Origin: Erysipelotrichaceae bacterium
GTDB lineage: Bacteria; Bacillota_I; Bacilli_A; Erysipelotrichales; Erysipelotrichaceae
NCBI GenBank assembly: GCA_013334325.1
Contig: JAAXXT010000004.1
Coordinates: forward strand, 1 to 64,000
Direction: 5' to 3'
Length of the DNA: 64,000 nt
The position numbers and the translations under genes were made by a program. This document shows positions 18,546-46,327 of the stretch, one piece after another (the first letter of the stretch is position 1; every line of letters begins with the position of its first letter). The notes below the pieces were generated by a model, which saw only the letters and a program-made list of their open reading frames with translations, made no database searches and had not been told where the DNA came from.

Positions 18546-18564
18546 CGTTTATTTGGAGGACTAC

Positions 18565-20178
18565 ATGTCAGAACGTTTCTATTCTTATGTTTCAACTAAA
18601 TGTGGTGCAGACTGTGTTCAAACGATTTTCTTATGTGCACCTGAGAAATATGCGATCAATGAAGAGAAAGCTAGAGAGTTTGCTGTGCTTTCTGGTTGGA
18701 TTGATCAAGTAGAAAAGAATGCGGCATTACTGATCATGTTGATAGTACCTAATGGATGGAATGATTTCTCAAGTGACGCATTATTGATTTTTTATAACAA
18801 GTATAAAAATGAGTTTAAATCACCTACAGGAATCAGTATTCCTGGAAGAGATGGAATTATCTGGTTATGGGAAACCATGATCTATGCGGTAGGATATGAT
18901 GAAGGTGCAGATTATCTAGGAAACGTATTGGTTAAACATTCGAATTTCTTCGCAGGGGCTGCATTGATCAATGGTGGAGCGAGTGATTTCTCTCCTATGA
19001 ATGAGAAAACTGACCATTGGTTTGTAGCTCAACCAACGAGTGATTACTGTGTTCTTAATAAGGAAGTTCCTGTCCCAGTTTGGTTGTTTGGGTATACTAA
19101 AAATACAGAGGCAAGCTCAAGATATTTCTCTGAAATCAATCATACGGATCACATACTTACCGATACCATTAATAGTATTGATGTTGAGATCCATTACAAT
19201 TTAAAAGAACCAGCACAACAGGTTCGTACTTCATTTGAAAACTCTAGAGTTGATCTAGTTATTGCTAAGACAATAATGAATGAACTCTTTAATAAAAGTA
19301 TACGTTGGAAAAATAGTCCTGATGGAACCATAAAACGCTACTTAGGTAGAAATGAGTATCTTACTTCACAACGATTCAAACACTACAGTGTAAAGTGTGG
19401 AAACTTCGATTATCCCTATTCAGTACATATTCCAAACGGATTGAATATTGATGATATAAAAGGATATCCTTTGGTTATAAGTCTACATGGTCGAGGAGAA
19501 CCGACTTGGGTCTTCGCTGAGAAGAATGGATGGGATAAGTTGGCAGATGAAACAAAAGAATTCATCGTTGTCTTTCCGGATTCAAAATTTAACATTTGGC
19601 AAATTGAAAGAGATTATGACGCACTAGAAACCATTCTGAATGATCTAAAGAAGACCTATGAATATGAGCCTGAACGTGTTTATCTAACTGGTTTCTCTAA
19701 TGGAGCCATATATACCTGTCAACAAGCTTCTACTCATCCTTGGTTATTTGCGGCTGCTTCTCCTTGGAATGGACCTGATATGGAAACATGTAAGAAGGGC
19801 AATATAGCCTCTTATGTCTATCATCCTGATTTCATCGATTCTGATTATGAGTTACCTTTCTTTATCATCGTTGGAGACAATGATTCAAAAGCTATCGCTG
19901 ATCGGCATGATGAACTAGAAATAGTCCTTCCTATCAATGGATGCTCATTTCTAAATGAAGAAGAATTGAAGAATTATTATACAAATGAGAACAAATTTGA
20001 AGAAGGTCATCGATTTAAAACAAGACTTTATCTTAATAAGAATCTAAGTCCTAGAGTAGGACTTACTGTCATGAAAAATATGCCTCACGGTGCTATTTTT
20101 GATGAAAGTAGAGCAGCATGGAATTTTATGAAACGATTCCGTAGACCAAATAGAAATAAACATATTGAGGAGGTATAA
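18565..20178 (+). CDS. two-domain alpha/beta-hydrolase (esterase D/PHB-depolymerase-like), paralogue 1
   Basis: A 537-residue protein from the ATG at 18565 (TTTGGAGGACT ahead; the in-frame TTG at 18553 lies in that site). The C-terminal half, from about residue 285, is a catalytic alpha/beta-hydrolase: oxyanion LVISLHGRGEP, nucleophile Ser in LTGFSNGAIY, acid Asp in IIVGDNDSKA, His in NMPHGAIFDE. The N-terminal half looks like a second, degenerate hydrolase fold without GxSxG. No signal peptide, so cytoplasmic. It is the most divergent of three tandem paralogues. Substrate unknown; ester cleavage is inferred from the motifs. Confidence 0.8.
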   Translation: MSERFYSYVSTKCGADCVQTIFLCAPEKYAINEEKAREFAVLSGWIDQVEKNAALLIMLIVPNGWNDFSSDALLIFYNKYKNEFKSPTGISIPGRDGIIWLWETMIYAVGYDEGADYLGNVLVKHSNFFAGAALINGGASDFSPMNEKTDHWFVAQPTSDYCVLNKEVPVPVWLFGYTKNTEASSRYFSEINHTDHILTDTINSIDVEIHYNLKEPAQQVRTSFENSRVDLVIAKTIMNELFNKSIRWKNSPDGTIKRYLGRNEYLTSQRFKHYSVKCGNFDYPYSVHIPNGLNIDDIKGYPLVISLHGRGEPTWVFAEKNGWDKLADETKEFIVVFPDSKFNIWQIERDYDALETILNDLKKTYEYEPERVYLTGFSNGAIYTCQQASTHPWLFAAASPWNGPDMETCKKGNIASYVYHPDFIDSDYELPFFIIVGDNDSKAIADRHDELEIVLPINGCSFLNEEELKNYYTNENKFEEGHRFKTRLYLNKNLSPRVGLTVMKNMPHGAIFDESRAAWNFMKRFRRPNRNKHIEEV

Positions 20179-20182
20179 CAAT

Positions 20183-21970
20183 ATGAAAGACACAATGAAT
20201 GAATTGATTCAGTTCTCTCCATTTGGAGGTCAGTTGATCCTTGAAGAGGTTAAAGGTAATACATCAGGAAAGCTCAATCCAGAAAACAATATTGTTACTG
20301 TGATTGGTGTTGATCGTAGTATGGTTGCCTATATCCCTAAGAGTGGATGTCCTCACGCAAAACAGACCCAAGTTCTTATGGTATTACGTGATAGTAACAC
20401 CCTTGAAAGTGCTGAAAAGCTTATGAAGGAATTAGAACTTGATCAATTGGCTGATGCAAATCACTTTATATTGTTGTTTCCTAATCCTACTGATGATGGA
20501 TGGAATTATCAAGAAGATGTAAACAAAGATAATGATATCCAATATCTTGCCCGTTGTTTTGCTGCATTAACAAAATCAAAAGGAAGAGTTTCAGGTTTTA
20601 ATGGATTGATTTTCTATATTGGAACTACTCCAAATTCCTCCGCAATGGTTACAACCTTAGCGATCAAATCTCCATTGGATGCTGCAGCGATTATGGTTAC
20701 AGAATTCCCTAAAACTTATCAGTTACCTACAGGAAAATCAGCACAGCAAGTTGCATGGATCTGTGGTAAAAATGTTCAACTAGAAGCTTATTTAGCGATA
20801 GTCAATAAAGCAAATAATATTAGCCAAGATGGTGATGTTACGGTCCATGTGAATTCTCAAAATGAATGTGTTAAACATTTCGTATCAAAAGAAGGAATAT
20901 CTGCCAAAACTGTTGAGAACGCTTGGGATAAAATGTTTTCTGAAACAAGACGTTGGCGTAATGATACATTTGGGACTTATCAACCAAGAATAGACTTTGC
21001 TTCCAAAGGTTTCACTAAACATTATGAGGATGATTCTTTAGGTACCAATAGGGGATTTAAGCATACTTGGTATGAATATGTTCCTGAACAATTAAGAGGA
21101 ACAAATAAGAAAGTACCCCTTGTTCTATATTTCCATGGGATCAATTGTGTTGGTCTATATGGAGCTGAGCAAAGTGGATTAGCGAGTATCGCTGATAAAG
21201 AAGGATTTGTCGTTGTATTCCCAGATCCAGCCATTGAAGAAAGATGGAATATCTGGGATGATCCTCGTTTACCAAGTGATGTGGAGTATATCATGGCTTT
21301 GATCAAACATATGAAGAAGGTTCATCCAATTGATGAATCCAGAATCTATATCGCAGGATTCTCTATGGGATCAATGTTTACCAATGCCTTGGCATGTTCA
21401 TATCCTGAAATATTTGCTGCAGCTTGTGCCTTTAATGGACCTCATACAGGTTATTTATCGACACTAGACTTTTCCAAAAAAGGTATGGCTCAATTTAGAC
21501 CAAATACTGTAATCAACGACTTACCAGTATGGGATAAAGCAACATCCCAAATCCATGATTTAGCGGATGAAAAGAAATCACTGTATGATTATCGACTACC
21601 TTTTGTTCAATTTGTTGGATTATTGGATGGGGTAGGTTTTGACCCTGATAGAATATGGCCAGTAAATGGACCTAATGATGGAACTTGGCCACTAGGAATT
21701 GCTTATTGGAAGAAATTCAATAATATTCAACAGGAAAACATTTTTAGTACCGAGTATATCTCAGGTATTGCTTCCCCAGTATGCATAAAAGAAGGCGAAA
21801 GATTTATTCATCAGGTATGGAATTCAGCCGATGAGAATCTGGATACACTTTATCATTTGATAAGTGTTGAATGTATGCCTCACGCAGTCGATTTGAAAGG
21901 TTTTGAAATAGGTTGGAATATCATAAAGCATTATTCTCGAAATAATGATGGATCACTTACAAAAAGATAA
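20183..21970 (+). CDS. two-domain alpha/beta-hydrolase (esterase-like), paralogue 2
   Basis: About 595 residues from the ATG at 20183, which follows GAGGAGGT. It starts with QFSPFGGQLILEEV, a sequence shared with the next gene. The C-terminal half carries VLYFHGINCVG (oxyanion loop), Ser in IAGFSMGSMFT, Asp in FVGLLDGVGFD and His in CMPHAVDLKG. The N-terminal ~240 residues hold the segment VLMVLRDSNTLESAEKLM and a pseudo-elbow TTPNSSAM where a nucleophile would sit. No signal peptide. About half identical by eye to paralogue 3, showing a recent duplication. Confidence 0.8.
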   Translation: MKDTMNELIQFSPFGGQLILEEVKGNTSGKLNPENNIVTVIGVDRSMVAYIPKSGCPHAKQTQVLMVLRDSNTLESAEKLMKELELDQLADANHFILLFPNPTDDGWNYQEDVNKDNDIQYLARCFAALTKSKGRVSGFNGLIFYIGTTPNSSAMVTTLAIKSPLDAAAIMVTEFPKTYQLPTGKSAQQVAWICGKNVQLEAYLAIVNKANNISQDGDVTVHVNSQNECVKHFVSKEGISAKTVENAWDKMFSETRRWRNDTFGTYQPRIDFASKGFTKHYEDDSLGTNRGFKHTWYEYVPEQLRGTNKKVPLVLYFHGINCVGLYGAEQSGLASIADKEGFVVVFPDPAIEERWNIWDDPRLPSDVEYIMALIKHMKKVHPIDESRIYIAGFSMGSMFTNALACSYPEIFAAACAFNGPHTGYLSTLDFSKKGMAQFRPNTVINDLPVWDKATSQIHDLADEKKSLYDYRLPFVQFVGLLDGVGFDPDRIWPVNGPNDGTWPLGIAYWKKFNNIQQENIFSTEYISGIASPVCIKEGERFIHQVWNSADENLDTLYHLISVECMPHAVDLKGFEIGWNIIKHYSRNNDGSLTKR

Positions 21971-21979
21971 GGAGAAACT

Positions 21980-23749
21980 ATGAACGACAGAATGAACGAA
22001 GTAACTGTATTTTCACCTTTTGGTGGTCAATTGATCCTTGAAGAAGTGCTTGGATCAAACAATGAATTTAAGATCCCCGAAAACTCTATATCAACTAAAA
22101 AAGGATCTGATAGAAGCATGTTTTCATATGTTCCTGTATCGGGTTGTTATGACGCCAAACAAGAACAAGTGTTAATGGTTCTTCGTGATGAAACTAATGA
22201 AGTGAGTGCTGAGAAATTGATGAAGGAGTTGAAGTTGGACGAATTGGCAGAAGAGAAACATCTGATTCTACTTTTCCCTAACCCTAGCAATCAAGGATGG
22301 AATTATCAAGGTGATGCTCTAAGAGAAGATGATTTATCTTTCTTAGTTCGTTGTTTTGCGGCACTACCAAAATCAAAAGGAAAAGCTTCTGGATTCAATG
22401 GGATGATTTTCTACATTGCAACTTCGAATAGTTCTAGCGCCTTATTATCTTTACTGTCTGAAAAACAACCAATTGATTGTTCAGCGATGATGCTTGGTGC
22501 TTATCCAAAGGACTATCATATTGCGCAAGGTGGGTTAAGACAATCAGTTAATGCTTGGGTCTATGAAGAAAACAAAGAACTCCAAGAATATCTTATTGAA
22601 GTGAATCATATCGGGTCAAAGAGCGTAAGCGATGGCTTAAGTAAATATACTTCAAAACTCAATGAGAATAATATGCATTTTGTATCGAGCACAGGATTAA
22701 ACGCTAATGAAATAAAGAATGCTTGGGAATTATTGTTTTCTGAAACTAGACGTTGGAGAAATGATACCTATGGTACTTATCAGAAGCGTACTAATTTTAC
22801 CGAATGGGGTTTTGTAGGGCATGTAAACGATGATTATTTAACTGTAAACAATGGTTTTAAACATACTTGGTATGAGTATGTGCCTGAACAATTACGAGGC
22901 ACAGAAGAAAAAGTACCACTTGTGTTTTACTTCCATGGTGGAGCTTGTGTTCCACTTTATGGTGCAGAACAAAGTGATTGGCATGAGATCGCTAAAAAAG
23001 AGAACTTCATCGTTGTATACCCAAAAGCCTCTATTGGGAAGATGTGGAATGCCTTCGATGATCTAAATCAACCTAGTGATTTCGCTTTTGTCTTAGCTTT
23101 GATTGAGCACATGAAAAAAGTTCATCCGATTGATGAAACAAGAATTTATTTATCGGGTTTCTCAATGGGATCCATGATGTCAAATGCTATGGCATGTGCC
23201 TATCCACAACTTTTTGCAGCGACTGCACCTTTGAATGCTCAACATCTAGGATATTTATCCAATCGAGCTAAGTTAATGTCATCTCCTGCGTTAGGTAATA
23301 AACCAACAGATGATCTATTGAATGAGATTAGTCACACGAAGATCTTGGCAGATGAAGCTAAAAAGAGAATGGATTATCGTATGCCTGTATTTCAATGTAG
23401 TGGTTTATTGGATGATTTGTTTAATACTTGGCCAATAGACAAAGAAGAAAATCTTTGGATACCAACCTTTAATTATTGGAAAGCATATAATCATATTCCA
23501 GTAACTAAATTTGAATACAATAGTAAATATGAAACAGGTTTATACTCTGACGAAACTCGTTATGTCTGTGTTGATGAACGATTCATACATCATACGTGGT
23601 ATACCAGTGATACTCATTTGCCTTTGTATCAATTCTTGGTTGCGAAGAGAATGCCTCATGCTGTAGATCTAAGAGAAATTAGATTGGCCTGGCAATTTAT
23701 GAAGCACTATTCAAGATATTCAGATGGTACACTAGAGTATAAAGAGTAA
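21980..23749 (+). CDS. two-domain alpha/beta-hydrolase (esterase-like), paralogue 3
   Basis: A 589-residue protein, close to paralogue 2 along its whole length (VFSPFGGQLILEEV start; ETRRWRNDTYGTYQ linker; FKHTWYEYVPEQLRGT). Catalytic residues: Ser in LSGFSMGSMMSN, Asp in CSGLLDDLFNT, His in RMPHAVDLREI. The oxyanion region is FYFHGGACVPLYG. The ribosome site AAGGAGAAA starts two bases before the preceding gene's end region, so the genes are co-transcribed. Cytoplasmic by lack of a signal sequence. The linker motif WRND.YGTYQ is conserved between the two and may mark a domain boundary. Confidence 0.8.
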   Translation: MNDRMNEVTVFSPFGGQLILEEVLGSNNEFKIPENSISTKKGSDRSMFSYVPVSGCYDAKQEQVLMVLRDETNEVSAEKLMKELKLDELAEEKHLILLFPNPSNQGWNYQGDALREDDLSFLVRCFAALPKSKGKASGFNGMIFYIATSNSSSALLSLLSEKQPIDCSAMMLGAYPKDYHIAQGGLRQSVNAWVYEENKELQEYLIEVNHIGSKSVSDGLSKYTSKLNENNMHFVSSTGLNANEIKNAWELLFSETRRWRNDTYGTYQKRTNFTEWGFVGHVNDDYLTVNNGFKHTWYEYVPEQLRGTEEKVPLVFYFHGGACVPLYGAEQSDWHEIAKKENFIVVYPKASIGKMWNAFDDLNQPSDFAFVLALIEHMKKVHPIDETRIYLSGFSMGSMMSNAMACAYPQLFAATAPLNAQHLGYLSNRAKLMSSPALGNKPTDDLLNEISHTKILADEAKKRMDYRMPVFQCSGLLDDLFNTWPIDKEENLWIPTFNYWKAYNHIPVTKFEYNSKYETGLYSDETRYVCVDERFIHHTWYTSDTHLPLYQFLVAKRMPHAVDLREIRLAWQFMKHYSRYSDGTLEYKE

Positions 23750-37434: not shown

Positions 37435-38535
37435 TTAAACAGGTTTTCGACTAAACTTAGAAATAAACTCTGCTCTTGATCGTACAAGTGATTTCTCAAA
37501 AATCTTAGAGATGTGTTTTTTAACGGTAGGTTCGCTGATGTATAACTTATGCGAGATCTCACTGTTTCCCATACCTGATAAGACAAGATCCGCCACATCT
37601 TTCTCTCTTAATGTTAAGAAAGTAGTGTCGTGATGTTGAAGTTGCTTTGGTTCAATTAAAGTTTCGGCGACTGCCTCACTATTGATGTAGACATTGTTTT
37701 GAGCTTTCTTTATAAAATCTGCAGCGGTGATGTTTTCGTTTTCATTGGTATAGGAACCAATATTGATTGAGAATTTAACATCTGTATTTCCGATGATGAG
37801 CTTTGTAGAGGTAATTTTCTTAAATAATCGTCGGGTAGTTTTATAAGCTTCTTTTTCATCTGTATTATTAAGTACTAAAATAAAACGTAATCCATGATAT
37901 CTGGCAAGAAAATCTTCTTGATGTAGACAAAAGGGAATCATAAGTCTTCCAACATGTTTTAAGACATCATCGCCGATCTTAAATCCATAGGTCTTATTGA
38001 TGGCGAGAATATTGTTGATGCTGACGAAGATCAAAGATATAGGTAGTTTTTGTTTATGTGAAGTCTTAATAAGCATAGGAAGTTGTTCCATCGCATAGCG
38101 TCCATTAAAGGCGCCTGTTAGAGAATCTCGATTTGCTTTAGAATGCATCTCTTCGATGACTTGAACTATGAGGCCTTCGCTTTTCTTCTCGATTTCAACA
38201 AGACCTGTATTGGTGATGTCTTTAAAAAGCTCAATGACCATCTTCTTACCATCTTTAACAATAGGCAAAGCAGTCACCATCGAAGCTTTTCCATTATGAT
38301 AAACAATCTTAGAGTAACTTTTATCTTCGGTGTAAGCTTTCTTAGAAATACAATTAATACAACTTAACTCATTTGACCAGATCTCATAACAATGATGAGC
38401 TTTTGAAGCTTTAGTGTCATCATGTCCAAAATCACCTTCGATGAGGATATGTTTCTCAGGATCAACAAAACGATAATGGTCAAACAGTTGTTTGAAGAGT
38501 TCTTCGGTGATTTTAGAATCAAGTTCTTTATCCAT
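37435..38535 (-). CDS. degenerate GGDEF-domain protein with C-terminal LuxR HTH
   Basis: A 366-residue cytoplasmic regulator. N-terminal ~110 residues: PAS-like with a cysteine cluster (HHCYEIW...SCINCISKKAY, about 42-65) that could bind a metal or sense redox. Middle, about 135-290: a GGDEF fold (DSLTGAFNGRYAMEQ; GDDVLKHVGRL) whose signature is replaced by YHGLRF, so no cyclase activity is expected. C-terminus, about 300-360: LuxR HTH (LTLREKDVADLVLSGMGNSEIS; SEPTVKKHISKIF). CAGGAGT precedes the ATG. Divergent from the surface-protein operon, with palindromes between, so a direct regulator of it is likely. Confidence 0.85.
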   Translation of the reverse strand: MDKELDSKITEELFKQLFDHYRFVDPEKHILIEGDFGHDDTKASKAHHCYEIWSNELSCINCISKKAYTEDKSYSKIVYHNGKASMVTALPIVKDGKKMVIELFKDITNTGLVEIEKKSEGLIVQVIEEMHSKANRDSLTGAFNGRYAMEQLPMLIKTSHKQKLPISLIFVSINNILAINKTYGFKIGDDVLKHVGRLMIPFCLHQEDFLARYHGLRFILVLNNTDEKEAYKTTRRLFKKITSTKLIIGNTDVKFSINIGSYTNENENITAADFIKKAQNNVYINSEAVAETLIEPKQLQHHDTTFLTLREKDVADLVLSGMGNSEISHKLYISEPTVKKHISKIFEKSLVRSRAEFISKFSRKPV

Positions 38536-38659: not shown

Positions 38660-39136
38660 ATGAAACTCAAACTTACCGTATTAGCATTCTTAGCTGTATT
38701 ATTGATCTCTAGCTTATCAGCAGCAGCATTGACTTCCCTTAGCATTGACAGAACAGTTGAATCAGGCACCGTCTTGGCCGATACAAACGCCAATGTCGCA
38801 GTTAAATTCGCAGCCGGAACAGGTTACGCTAGTGTATTGTCTGAAAGCGCCGATGGAAAGGTTGCCTTCGATCTAAGCAAATTGCTCGTTAACTCCGCAA
38901 ATGGATTTAACACCGATGCTCAATTCCAAATCGGAACTGCATTATTACCTGTATTTGTTCTAACCAACAATTCTGATGACGCTGTTACTGTCGCACTAAG
39001 CGGCGCTACTGGTGGCTTGGTATTGGTTGGTAGTGCATCTGTTGCTTCTGGCGCCTCTGCTAACTATTACTTCACCATTGATAGCACAGGGATCGCTAAG
39101 AGTACCGCTATTGGCGGAACGATCCAAGTTCGTTAA
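38660..39136 (+). CDS. secreted DUF1102-like surface protein 1
   Basis: A 158-residue protein from the ATG at 38660 (AAAGGTGG ahead). The signal peptide is residues 1-21 (LAFLAVLLISSLSAAALT), in which the late Ala-rich stretch suits a SipW/ER-type peptidase. The mature part starts with SLSIDRTVESGTVLADTNAN, typical of DUF1102 proteins common in archaea, and is rich in Ala, Ser, Thr and Val with predicted beta structure (VFVLTNNSDDAVTVALSG). Cysteine-free. By position and fold it may be a TasA-like polymerising surface protein, made with its own signal peptidase (inference). No sorting or anchor motif. Confidence 0.75.
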   Translation: MKLKLTVLAFLAVLLISSLSAAALTSLSIDRTVESGTVLADTNANVAVKFAAGTGYASVLSESADGKVAFDLSKLLVNSANGFNTDAQFQIGTALLPVFVLTNNSDDAVTVALSGATGGLVLVGSASVASGASANYYFTIDSTGIAKSTAIGGTIQVR

Positions 39137-39148
39137 TCTAGTAAACTT

Positions 39149-40252
39149 ATGAAGAAATTGATGTTAGGAGCACTAGTGGTAATAGGGATTGTACTCGCGA
39201 TTTTAGGGGTTGGATCTGTATCACAGAGTGCCCCTAACATCTCTTACGTTTATTCCGGTAGTATGGAACCAGTCATTCATACAGGTGATGGTTTCATCGT
39301 TATCCCAGTCAGTCAAATCAAATTAGGTGACATTGTGTTGTATCGACCCTTAAAGCTCGAGGCAGCACTTATTACCCATAGAATCATCAGTATCGATTCT
39401 AACGGTTATGGAACTAAAGGTGATGCCTCGCTTTCTTCAGATCAAGAAGCAGGAGAACCCTTAGTCACATCTGATCGGATCATCGGTAAAGTCCTCATTT
39501 TAAATGGTTCAGTATTTACGATTTCTAAATTAGGTTTATTTGTTTCAGGTCTACAAGAACTTATCGGATCCAATACGGCCCTTGTTTCATCAACATTGAT
39601 CAGTAGTGGAGTCATGATCATCTTATGGAACCTACTATTTCCTAAGAAGAAACGTAAAAGTAGAAGACGTTGGAGATTGCGCGATGTCTATCAAGGCGCA
39701 GCCATCCTCATCTCTGGAATCTTGGTCTTAAGTATCTTAATGGGCTCCTCGATGCAGACTGTAAACTATTTGGTCAGTGATAGTCCCGGCACAGATGGTC
39801 TACAAGTCACCACCAATCAAGCGGGTGAAGTCATAGGTACTGTAAAAAACTCAAGCTTATTTCCAGTTGCGAATTATGTATCAGGAATCCTTCCTCTTAA
39901 AACCACTTTAAAATCGGAAATCATAAGTCCGTTCTCCTCAAGAACCTTTACGATTTCAGTAGATCCTCAAAAAGATATCGGTTGGTTTCAAGGTTATGTA
40001 CGTGTGTACAATATCCCTACAGTCCTACCACTAAAAGTATTAGATGTTTTATTTCAAATGAGTCCCTATATCGCATTAGGTGCAGTAGCCATCGCAAGTT
40101 ATCTGTGGTTATTACTCATCATAAAGATCTTTGAATATCTATTCAAAGTAGAATCTTGGATACCTCTTCATGCGTTAAAAGACAAAGCTTTGTTTAGAAG
40201 AGTAAATATATTTCTTAATTCGATGTTTGGTAGAAGGAGGTCTCGATCATGA
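39149..40252 (+). CDS. sipW: SipW/ER-type signal peptidase I with added ectodomain
   Basis: A 367-residue membrane peptidase. First segment about 5-24. Catalytic Ser in YSGSMEPVIHTGDG (about 39); the general base is His, in LITHRIISID (about 77), not Lys, the mark of the archaeal/ER/SipW class. GTKGDASLS is the third box. Unlike ~190-residue SipW, it continues with a segment (about 150-170), a basic linker (KKKRKSRRRWR), another segment, a ~100-residue beta-rich external domain and a last segment. That domain (QVTTNQAGEVIGTVKNSS) resembles the cargo proteins. No ribosome site is visible 12 bp after the cargo gene. Confidence 0.85.
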   Translation: MKKLMLGALVVIGIVLAILGVGSVSQSAPNISYVYSGSMEPVIHTGDGFIVIPVSQIKLGDIVLYRPLKLEAALITHRIISIDSNGYGTKGDASLSSDQEAGEPLVTSDRIIGKVLILNGSVFTISKLGLFVSGLQELIGSNTALVSSTLISSGVMIILWNLLFPKKKRKSRRRWRLRDVYQGAAILISGILVLSILMGSSMQTVNYLVSDSPGTDGLQVTTNQAGEVIGTVKNSSLFPVANYVSGILPLKTTLKSEIISPFSSRTFTISVDPQKDIGWFQGYVRVYNIPTVLPLKVLDVLFQMSPYIALGAVAIASYLWLLLIIKIFEYLFKVESWIPLHALKDKALFRRVNIFLNSMFGRRRSRS

Positions 40253-40824
40253 AGATAAAATCTGCAATAGTACTTATTATCATCGGGTCGATGATCGCGA
40301 TTTTGAATTTGAATGGAAGCGCAGCTCTTAGTACCCTCAACATCAATAGAAGCAGCGTTGGTAGTACAACCATCATCGATGATTCATCCGTTTTGGCTCC
40401 TATTGGTTTCAATAACACCAGCTTTGTGTTGACATCGACTTATATGAATATTGGAACCATAAAAAACAACAGTAATCAGACTTTAAGCTTAAGAATCTAT
40501 ATCGATCCCAATATTACAAAAACAAACAAAAGCTCTACGACTTGGACATTAACATTTAGAATACTGAATCAAAGTAACACTTCATTGACCACCAAAACAT
40601 TCTCAGGTACAGGAGTAAACAATCCTGGAGCTCAATGGACAACCGCAGTATCGTTAGCTTCTGGAGTTACGTATACAGTACAGGCAAGACTCTCAGTAGG
40701 GTCTACATCGAATTTTCAAGCCCCTACATCCTTTAGGTTTGAAGGCATAAAAACAAACATCTTAAACATTGTGATTGCGGATAGCGCAAACTCTCCTCGT
40801 AGGCAATCGTATACAGCTCGATAA
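40249..40824 (+). CDS. secreted DUF1102-like surface protein 2
   Basis: A 191-residue protein with an N-terminal signal (SAIVLIIIGSMIAILNLNGSAA, about 5-26) and mature start LSTLNINRSSVGSTTIIDDSS, parallel to protein 1 (SLSIDRTVESGTVLADTN). The rest is Ser/Thr/Asn-rich beta-type sequence ending RRQSYTAR. It overlaps the peptidase gene by ATGA and has a near-perfect AGAAGGAGG site, so it should be translated strongly. Presumed second substrate of the linked peptidase, perhaps a minor subunit or cap of a surface fibre (inference). No sortase motif. Confidence 0.7.
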   Translation: MKIKSAIVLIIIGSMIAILNLNGSAALSTLNINRSSVGSTTIIDDSSVLAPIGFNNTSFVLTSTYMNIGTIKNNSNQTLSLRIYIDPNITKTNKSSTTWTLTFRILNQSNTSLTTKTFSGTGVNNPGAQWTTAVSLASGVTYTVQARLSVGSTSNFQAPTSFRFEGIKTNILNIVIADSANSPRRQSYTAR

Positions 40825-40835
40825 AGGCGGATCTT

Positions 40836-42773
40836 ATGAAAACTTGGATAAAGAAAAACGGAATACTTACTCTCTTGATGATTGCCTTAATCGCTTCATC
40901 TTTTTACAGTTATACCACGTATAAACCACTACCTGAATCTATCTACGATGAGGTAACGCTTCAAGTGGATCCTGATTATCAAATTAAGACAACCAAAGCC
41001 AGTATATTATGGCCTGAAAATACGATCCTTGATCAAGGTAATAAGGCTTATTTCTACGCAGTTGAACCAATGGTTCATTATACGCCCAGTTTAACTTTGA
41101 TTGGAGCCAATAGCGCTGGTTTAAATGGGACTGCTCAAATCACATTAACCATTCAAGCTGTTAATGATAAACAAGAAGTCTATTGGACCACAGTGTATCT
41201 TCAAAACCCTAGTGAAAACTTTCAGATCACTGCGGGTAACCAATCCATCGATTTGGGAAGTGTCGATATCAAGATCTCAGAGATCACAGCCATCATCGAT
41301 TCAATCAGTTCAGAGCTTAACTTCACCAATGCGATTTTTCAATTGATCGTTAATGTGCAAGTTCAATACACAGGTAAAGTAAACAATGTTTCTCTAAACA
41401 ATACCTTAAATTCACCATTAGTACTTAGCTTTGATGGAGTTGGTTTCAACGTCCCAAAAACATCTGACAGTATCACAAAGATTAGCCTCTCTGTGAATCC
41501 TGTGGGAACTTCCTATAACTTGGTTCAAGAGATCCAAACCACTCCTCTCCCTTTCGGATTAGTTTCATTAAGTGTATTATCTTTACTTATCATTGTTTAT
41601 TTAAGAAACAGAAGTGTTAGTGAAAACAAACGTCAACATCGTAAATATAAAGAATGGATCACTGATGGGAGTGTCTCTACAAAAGATCACATCAACATCA
41701 ACGTCAACACTTTAGAAGGCTTGGTTGATTTAGCCATCGACTTGGATAAACGTGTTATCTATGATGCGGATAAAGAAAAGTATCATGTCTTAGAAGAAAC
41801 ACTTATCTATACTTTTGATCCTCAACGTAAGAAGAATAGATCTAAAGGTGAGAAGAAATTGTTAGGTAAGATCCTACTAGAATCCAATGCGATCCTTCCT
41901 GAACAACTCGAAGTTGGCTTACTCTATCAACAGAAGTTCGATCGTCAATTGGGCATCAGCTTAATGGAGTTGGGTTTTATCGATGAGACGACCCTCTATA
42001 GTACCTTAGCTGCTCAAGCCAATATTAGATTCCTTCATCTAGATTCTTCATCGCTTATGATCGATGAAGAACTCTTGAAGAAGTTTACCTTAAACAGAGC
42101 TCGTGCTTTAGAAGCACTTCCTTTAGGACTTAAGAAAGATGGTAAGCTGGTCGTAGTATGTGCTAACCCATCTCGAAAAGGCATCGCAGAAGCTTGTGCA
42201 GAAGTGTATAAAGTAGAAGTAGAATTGGTTGTGACCTTACCTTCAACGATCTATCAAACGATTGAACACTTATCAAAAGTAGAAAAAGAACGCTTAAACC
42301 CTCAAAAGGAAGCATCCTTATCCCAACAGAATCTAAACAAGGATGAACAAGATGCCTTCTTAAAGAATTATGTCTTGGGAAATATCGATCTAGAACTGCT
42401 GCTTAAAGGTTGTGGTTTAGTAGGCGATCAGATCCTAGACAATGTCCCTGATAAAGACCTGTTGATGCAATCTTTGGTTAATAATCACTTCATCTCATCC
42501 CAAACAGCTCATATCCTAAATGGAATAAAAGCAGCTGTATTGAAAATGAATCGTAGTGATCTTGAGATGCTTGATTGTCCTAAACTAGAAGATGTTTTGA
42601 TTAAATCCAATTATTTAACTCAAAAAGATTTTGATTGGGCTAGAAGAGAATCCATCAGAGAAGGTGTAGGCATAGAAAAGATTCTCTTGAGTAATTATTT
42701 GGTTTCTCAAGATAGCTTAAATGATGTGAAGAGTTTATTGGATAAACTATCACTCTTATTAAAATCAGAGTAG
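40836..42773 (+). CDS. DUF5305-MshEN transmembrane fusion protein
   Basis: A 645-residue protein. TM1 about 9-27; external DUF5305 domain about 30-235; TM2 about 238-256; then a cytoplasmic DUF5305 tail (LEGLVDLAIDLDKRVIYD, 293-310). Residues 342-394 form two 24-residue MshEN motifs spaced by 5 (LLGKILLESN..., QLGISLMELG...), followed by a GspE N-terminal domain to about 480 (EALPLGLKKDGKLVVVCANP). A second degenerate 24-5-24 pair is at 583-635. No ATPase domain. MshEN binds c-di-GMP in secretion ATPases; here the RLG arginines are Leu and Gln, so binding is uncertain. Probable bridge between surface fibre and cytoplasmic signal. Confidence 0.8.
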   Translation: MKTWIKKNGILTLLMIALIASSFYSYTTYKPLPESIYDEVTLQVDPDYQIKTTKASILWPENTILDQGNKAYFYAVEPMVHYTPSLTLIGANSAGLNGTAQITLTIQAVNDKQEVYWTTVYLQNPSENFQITAGNQSIDLGSVDIKISEITAIIDSISSELNFTNAIFQLIVNVQVQYTGKVNNVSLNNTLNSPLVLSFDGVGFNVPKTSDSITKISLSVNPVGTSYNLVQEIQTTPLPFGLVSLSVLSLLIIVYLRNRSVSENKRQHRKYKEWITDGSVSTKDHININVNTLEGLVDLAIDLDKRVIYDADKEKYHVLEETLIYTFDPQRKKNRSKGEKKLLGKILLESNAILPEQLEVGLLYQQKFDRQLGISLMELGFIDETTLYSTLAAQANIRFLHLDSSSLMIDEELLKKFTLNRARALEALPLGLKKDGKLVVVCANPSRKGIAEACAEVYKVEVELVVTLPSTIYQTIEHLSKVEKERLNPQKEASLSQQNLNKDEQDAFLKNYVLGNIDLELLLKGCGLVGDQILDNVPDKDLLMQSLVNNHFISSQTAHILNGIKAAVLKMNRSDLEMLDCPKLEDVLIKSNYLTQKDFDWARRESIREGVGIEKILLSNYLVSQDSLNDVKSLLDKLSLLLKSE

Positions 42774-42835: not shown

Positions 42836-42876
42836 TTGACAAGTCTAACTCTAATCATTATAATAAGCATTAGATT
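42836..42876 (+). promoter_or_regulatory. consensus psu promoter with operator-like CTAAT/ATTAG repeats
   Basis: TTGACA (42836-42841), 17 bp, TATAAT (42859-42864): a full consensus sigma-A promoter. The -10 is flanked by TCTAACTCTAATC (42844-42856) upstream and CATTAGATTAGA (42868-42879) downstream, inverted with respect to each other. Each arm holds two CTAAN units. A repressor bound here would cover the whole promoter; the HTH-bearing PsuK encoded next is the natural candidate. Confidence 0.8.
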
Positions 42877-45399: not shown

Positions 45400-45538
45400 C
45401 TAATTGTTTAATCGAGAGAACCATAAATATCTCTATAAATCATAAACAAACCTTGATAAATCTAAGTCTATAGAATACTATATTAATAGTTATTTGTGAA
45501 ATAAAAAATAATTCAGATTGAATTTAGAAGGAGCTCAT

Positions 45539-46327
45539 TTGAGAAGAGTATTATATAAAAAAGGCTTTACTTTACTAGAATTAATCATCGTCATAGCTAT
45601 TATGGCTGTTTTAGCTACGATTCTTATTCCAACAGTTACTGGGTATATTGAGAAAGCCAATACAGCCACTGATATCGCCAATCTTAGATCATTAAATAGT
45701 GTTAGCCAACTCTATCGTTTTGAATCAAATCCCATCCAAGAGGATCTGTTTACTGGTCTAACGACTGATTCTGATCGTATGAATGCTTTGATTACACATA
45801 ATTATTTATCAGAAGCAGTGGTTCCTAAACAAAAAAATGTATATTTTACTTGGAAAACGGATACTCAACAATGGATGATGGCGAATTCTAAAGTACCAAG
45901 CGATTTAAATGGAGTCACCATGGGAACAGGTGGTCATAAAGGTTACATCAAGGGATCATATTCAGGATCTACGCTTGATCTTGTTATGCCGCTTACCTTA
46001 AACAATGTTAATATAACTCATGTTTATCAAGATGTCTTTAATGGTAAAGGATTAACCTCACTTTATTTTGATCCAGCATGTGTTATTACAGAGATTCATG
46101 CGCGTGCTTTCAATAACAATAATCTCACCGAAGTGACCATTCCTAACACTGTCACAAAACTAGATTACGCCGCCTTTAATAACAATCCTATCACAAAAAT
46201 TACAATAGGACCTAATGTGACCTTTGAGACCAATGTCTTTAGAAACAACAATGCCTTTAGAGATACTTATCTCGCTCAAGGTGCAGGAACTTACCTATTT
46301 ATTGGTGGATCTTGGGTCAAACAATAA
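45539..46327 (+). CDS. orphan pseudopilin fused to BspA-like leucine-rich repeats
   Basis: A 262-residue protein. The TTG at 45539 is the likely start because AGAAGGAG lies 5 bp upstream. Residues 1-8 are a basic type IV prepilin leader (MRRVLYKKG), cut before FTLLELIIVIAIMAVLATILIP, with Glu at mature position 5. A helical stalk and ~80-residue head follow. From about residue 150 the chain has LRR_5/BspA repeats (LTSLYFDPACVITEIHARAF; LTEVTIPNTVTKLDYAAF). Pilin with LRR tail is unusual: the LRRs could bind a surface ligand. No assembly ATPase, platform protein or prepilin peptidase is in the window. Confidence 0.83.
   Translation: MRRVLYKKGFTLLELIIVIAIMAVLATILIPTVTGYIEKANTATDIANLRSLNSVSQLYRFESNPIQEDLFTGLTTDSDRMNALITHNYLSEAVVPKQKNVYFTWKTDTQQWMMANSKVPSDLNGVTMGTGGHKGYIKGSYSGSTLDLVMPLTLNNVNITHVYQDVFNGKGLTSLYFDPACVITEIHARAFNNNNLTEVTIPNTVTKLDYAAFNNNPITKITIGPNVTFETNVFRNNNAFRDTYLAQGAGTYLFIGGSWVKQ

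Follow-up and report, generated by a model that had tools for sequence, protein, structure and literature searches.

A DUF5305 membrane protein with a C-terminal MshEN domain, a candidate c-di-GMP receptor encoded in a SipW-type operon

The last of four genes in an operon within the window (the whole 64 000-nucleotide stretch of Erysipelotrichaceae DNA that was analysed) encodes a protein in which DUF5305 is fused to an MshEN module. The order of the genes is secreted protein, SipW-like signal peptidase, secreted protein and DUF5305-MshEN. On balance, the fusion is best regarded as a transmembrane protein that probably partners a SipW-dependent (TasA-like) fibre on the cell surface, with a cytosolic tail that would act as an MshEN-type receptor for c-di-GMP. 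A further proposal, put forward tentatively, is that cytosolic c-di-GMP may switch the assembly of a TasA-like fibre directly and post-translationally, without an ATPase, MshEN having been grafted onto an archaeal-type fibre operon.

Domain organization of the fusion protein

The ORF list and its translations place the fusion gene at 40836–42773 on the forward strand, as a single frame of 645 amino acids. DUF5305 (PF17231) was matched above its gathering score at residues 141–327 (41256–41816, +; Pfam E 4.5e-27), the match beginning at model position 23 and taking in the remaining ectodomain, a transmembrane (TM) segment and a juxtamembrane cytosolic segment. The original prediction had a TM segment joining an external DUF5305 domain to the tail. 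The segment itself was located at residues 238–256 (41547–41603, +; hydropathy 2.38), but DUF5305 as delimited by Pfam is not purely external, as it also spans the TM segment and ∼70 cytosolic residues. The TM segment is followed by a strongly basic, Arg/Lys-rich flank (NRSVSENKRQHRKYK), which places the MshEN tail in the cytosol. When compared with haloarchaeal proteins by tblastn and alignment, the most conserved part of DUF5305 was residues 258–329 (W-I...LEGLVDLAID..KRVI.D; 41607–41822, +), and haloarchaeal DUF5305 sequences were 36–44% identical to residues 260–335 by tblastn.

The MshEN module begins with two 24-residue motifs separated by exactly five residues, in agreement with the arrangement originally described. 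Motif I occupies residues 342–365 (LLGKILLESNAILPEQLEVGLLYQ; 41859–41930, +; PSSM score 19.3 bits) and motif II residues 371–394 (QLGISLMELGFIDETTLYSTLAAQ; 41946–42017, +; 19.2 bits), and the 53-residue NCBIfam model NF053729 (c-di-GMP_motif) was matched at residues 343–394 with 50.4 bits, above its cut-off of 38. A strict pattern for the motif pair had a single match when the window was translated in six frames, and 20 000 shuffled versions of the ORF yielded none. The C-terminal (GspE_N) subdomain follows at residues 401–483 (42036–42284, +; PF05157 MshEN, 39 bits, cut-off 23). A GspE N-terminal domain lacking its ATPase had been predicted at this point and was found; Pfam and NCBIfam detected no ATPase (T2SSE) domain in the 645-amino-acid frame, the NCBIfam PilB model covering the N-terminal part only, while the NCBIfam NfrB model aligned over residues 340–557.

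The nearest PDB sequences detected with phmmer were PilF (6f8l, E 1e-8) and MshE (5htl, E 7e-8), and the PDB matches include the c-di-GMP complexes 5htl and 8pdk. Profile–profile comparison with the MshEN domains of PilB proteins of the same bacterial family gave an E value of 9e-13. AlphaFold2 models had a pLDDT of 32.6 at full length and 46 for residues 336–489, with only a 98% identical homologue in the alignment, and two scans of viral contigs yielded no homologues to deepen it. Both values are too low to judge the fold; the predicted secondary structure was in agreement, and the first seven Foldseek matches of the model of residues 336–489 were GspE_N/MshEN domains (best E 0.016), Foldseek making use of sequence too. 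The fold and architecture predicted for DUF5305-MshEN appear well supported by the sequence comparisons.

A second pair of motifs, overlooked in the original prediction, is probably present in degenerate form (24+5+24) at residues 583–635 (42582–42740, +), where Gly3 and the terminal Gln are missing. A PSSM made from PilB, MshE and PilF motifs, with the pair scored at a gap of 5, gave a score there that was equalled by none of 2000 shuffles of the C-terminal region. The pair was not detected by phmmer or by hhalign (E 0.04, one motif). Residues 583–635 are probably a decayed copy of the motif pair.

Distribution and selection

The fusion was present in 2 of the 316 genomes of the order, which represent two species of one genus. 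Such rarity might be taken to indicate an assembly error, or a frameshift read-through joining two unrelated genes. An independently assembled metagenome bin of the same genus (contigs L004 and L005), the second genome to carry the fusion, refutes this explanation: its ORF is intact and 98% identical, with a synonymous rate ∼12 times the nonsynonymous rate. Omega was 0.08 for the whole ORF, 0.04 for MshEN and 0.07 for the C-terminal region, and the fusion is under purifying selection. A further fusion candidate, selected by frame length (G024, L007), proved to be an unrelated protein.

DUF5305 was matched in 28 of the 395 genomes of the class, mostly in frames of ∼340–450 amino acids. One DUF5305 gene of the same class (L077:3489–6185), which scored slightly below the cut-off, encodes the cytosolic segment followed by three DUF285 repeat stretches. 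In another genome a contig of 60% GC (L062; G248 contig C49) carries a haloarchaeal-looking DUF5305 gene, a signal peptidase gene and Taf-like fimbrial genes within a bacterial-class genome, and this contig is probably contamination. Taf fimbriae were rejected as an identity for the system, the NCBIfam TafE/TafA models matching a protein on L062 and not the genes of the window; a literature search on Taf found no paper.

The four-gene operon and its haloarchaeal counterparts

Gene 1 (38660–39136, +), with AAAGGTGG before the ATG at 38660, encodes a small secreted protein, a likely fibre subunit, that matched gene 1 of the Halarchaeum operon in a phmmer comparison of a 13-sequence set (E 2e-8). 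Gene 2 (39149–40252, +) encodes a signal peptidase of the SipW/archaeal type (Ser38/His77) with an extra C-terminal ectodomain. It scored 62.6 bits against TIGR02228 (cut-off 51.9) and matched haloarchaeal homologues with an E value of 1e-27, and fell far under the cut-off of NF046067, the NCBIfam equivalog for Bacillus SipW. Gene 3 (40249–40824, +) encodes a second small secreted protein with an N-terminal hydrophobic segment; a haloarchaeal gene for a small secreted protein lies in the same place, the agreement being one of place and size, without significant similarity. Neither gene 1 nor gene 3 matched TasA/camelysin or another named fibre family above the cut-off in Pfam or NCBIfam. It is fairly likely that both would provide fibre subunits.

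A signal peptidase gene adjoins DUF5305 in most of the loci examined, including those of Natrialba, Halocatena and Halostagnicola. The catalytic site is near the N-terminus in the peptidases of the window and the haloarchaea, but near the C-terminus in the DUF5305-adjoining peptidases of other members of the class. On plasmids of Halobaculum and Halarchaeum the order of the operon is identical (secreted/signal peptidase/secreted/DUF5305), and the first gene, the peptidase and DUF5305 are homologous to those of the window. The haloarchaeal operons share the SipW architecture, with the C-terminal ectodomain behind the catalytic site, and the conserved cytosolic segment of DUF5305; however, their DUF5305 proteins end at about 335–425 amino acids and carry no MshEN. 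This absence suggests that, in this lineage, a bacterial receptor for a second messenger was added to a kind of operon that archaea also have.

The divergent neighbour of the operon (37435–38535, −) encodes a degenerate GGDEF domain (YHGLRF, with HxxD for RxxD) and a LuxR-type HTH, as identified by Pfam, and is a possible regulator. The protein resembles a conserved non-cyclase regulator, which is unusual for a GGDEF protein. This gene next door, and the signalling genes that flank or follow some haloarchaeal DUF5305 genes (STAS/anti-sigma/response regulator, GAF and PAS/HalX), might point to signalling from the outside inwards, in which the state of the fibre or cell surface is sensed by the DUF5305 ectodomain and passed on to the cytosolic MshEN, making the protein a signalling sensor or c-di-GMP sink rather than an assembly gate. 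We consider this improbable, as the fusion has no recognised output domain beyond MshEN and the GGDEF-LuxR gene is also conserved at a locus that lacks the fibre operon. Its homologue in another species (G006), 38% identical and with the same degenerate site, adjoins an Rnf-type operon, and the gene was rejected as a conserved part of the fibre system.

Three other features of the window were recorded. A perfect 12/12 sigma-70 promoter (TTGACA-17-TATAAT; 42836–42864, +) lies ahead of a pseudouridine kinase-like gene, and 45518–46327 (+) encodes a type IV prepilin-like (N_methyl) protein with a BspA-type leucine-rich repeat C-terminus in Pfam. The ORF list also contains three consecutive large esterase/polyhydroxybutyrate-depolymerase-like genes (18553–23749, +) beside genes for sugar-acid catabolism.

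Ligand contacts in the MshEN motifs

In MshE and PilF, three leucines per side hold c-di-GMP, together with the backbone NH groups near Gly3, the terminal Gln of each motif and the residue that stacks at position 1 (PMC11731258). The loss of the nucleotide contact residues had been named as fatal to the original prediction, and they are retained: all six stacking leucines (L343/L358/L362 and L372/L387/L391), Gly3 (G344/G373) and the Gln at position 24 (Q365/Q394) are kept in both motifs. The arginine of each RLG is, as had been pointed out, replaced by Leu342 in motif I and Gln371 in motif II, with Lys341 and Arg370 standing one residue ahead of each motif. The extended consensus is (R/K/L)LG, Leu at position 1 favouring high affinity (PMC11731258), and Gln371 lies outside it. 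The missing arginine is not fatal, because GSPII-B of PilF, which has Lys/Leu there instead, still binds c-di-GMP with an affinity of 6 nM (PMC11731258), and GSPII-C binds despite a Pro opening motif II (PMC11731258). The worry over the absent arginine is largely settled by this published work on PilF.

Other positions deviate. Position 10 is Gly380 in motif II and Asn351, in place of Gly, in motif I, and Asn444 stands at the place of MshE D108. PilF GSPII-A, which carries His/Arg for Gln, does not bind even with the consensus restored, its helix 1 being capped (PMC12002112); in the fusion Ser336-Lys-Gly-Glu339 could form such a helix-1 cap, without a hydrophobic staple. In most MshEN-type PilB proteins of the same bacterial family the second Gln, at the end of motif II, is Arg instead, which makes the fusion the better-looking receptor. 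Judged from these residues, c-di-GMP binding between motifs I and II appears likely, the remaining doubts attaching to Gln371, Asn351, Asn444 and the possible helix cap.

The main rival explanation is that MshEN no longer binds nucleotide and is a docking or scaffold domain, perhaps serving to tether DUF5305 either to itself or to the machinery of type IV pili, in the manner of the N-domains of GspE and XpsE that dock to platform proteins. MshEN domains that do not bind exist, namely XpsE (PMC5013675) and PilF GSPII-A (PMC12002112). Three contact positions of the fusion deviate, the second pair of motifs is plainly degenerate and type IV pilus ATPases are encoded in the genome. However, both Gln residues, both Gly3 residues and all six leucines are conserved, unlike in GSPII-A and most same-family MshEN-type PilBs, and omega is very low in MshEN. 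A docking domain is rather unlikely on this evidence, and a c-di-GMP receptor is the preferred reading of the tail.

The c-di-GMP network of the genome

Of the 21 GGDEF domains encoded in the genome, at least 16 retain the GG[DE]EF motif intact, and an RxxD I-site is present in most of those. The genome also has three EAL domains with E-A-L-L-R and six c-di-GMP-I riboswitches (contigs C20, C22, C25 and C28; L137–L142). From this complement it is very likely that c-di-GMP is made and used in the cell. Two of the riboswitches stand in tandem on C20, 65 bases apart, and one on C25 precedes, by ∼4 kb, a PilB gene of the same orientation; a riboswitch ahead of the operon was considered, but none was found in the window. 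No PilZ domain was found in the genome, and MshEN is encoded by three genes, two for PilB-type (type IV pilus) ATPases and the fusion. The fusion is one of the few recognised candidate protein receptors for c-di-GMP in this genome.

Proposed mechanism

In the model that we favour, genes 1 and 3 would provide the secreted subunits, the product of gene 2 would cleave their signal peptides and DUF5305 would anchor, nucleate or gate assembly at the membrane. At high c-di-GMP the nucleotide would be bound between motifs I and II (residues 342–394) and the two MshEN subdomains would re-orient. The conserved juxtamembrane segment would then relay this change, by way of the single TM helix, to the ectodomain, and fibre formation would be favoured. 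The idea of control from inside to outside is strengthened by the SipW-type peptidase and two secreted proteins in the operon, and by the large c-di-GMP network. The coupling across the membrane, and its sign, are put forward as a possibility about which we are somewhat doubtful. Control of the assembly or anchoring of a fibre is proposed by analogy with sipW fibre operons (BsaA of C. perfringens) and with the MshEN tail of NfrB.

Comparison with known systems

MshE of V. cholerae and PilF GSPII-B of T. thermophilus share with the fusion the 24+5+24 motifs and GspE_N subdomain, the stacking leucines, Gly3 and the terminal Gln, and Leu342 has its counterpart in the Leu/Lys known to work at position 1 of PilF. 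The fusion differs from them in lacking the ATPase, in having MshEN as the tail of a membrane protein that also carries an extracellular domain, and in Gln371, Asn351 and Asn444. In the literature read, MshEN is placed in secretion and pilus ATPases, a glycosyltransferase, other signalling domains and various fusions (PMC5013675). The MshEN tail of E. coli NfrB, a membrane glycosyltransferase, controls a membrane enzyme and turns on a surface product (PMC8669469). NfrB and the fusion both have C-terminal MshEN behind a membrane segment, a surface product being controlled; however, the partner of MshEN is a cytosolic enzyme in NfrB and an extracellular domain, encoded in a protein-fibre operon, in the fusion.

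The sipW operon of C. perfringens (sipW-bsaABCRSD) produces protein fibres (BsaA) for biofilm and is regulated through transcription (PMC7395162). It resembles the operon of the window, as does tapA-sipW-tasA of B. subtilis, in that secreted fibre proteins come with their own signal peptidase of the ER/archaeal type, but genes 1 and 3 of the window have no TasA/BsaA family match. Within the literature searched, neither DUF5305 nor a direct c-di-GMP receptor is reported for these two fibre operons, no fibre operon in which MshEN is coupled to an extracellular domain came up, and no paper on DUF5305 was found. A membrane protein of a fibre operon that carries a c-di-GMP receptor in the cytosol would provide a direct route from a second messenger to the extracellular matrix. 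The fusion also offers an initial clue to DUF5305, a family common to archaea and bacteria, as it suggests the cytosolic segment of the family as the place of assembly control. LapD exerts inside-out control by c-di-GMP through a degenerate GGDEF-EAL receptor with HAMP and a protease partner; although this arrangement is different and not homologous to the fusion, in both a cytosolic c-di-GMP receptor would be coupled across the membrane to a function outside the cell.
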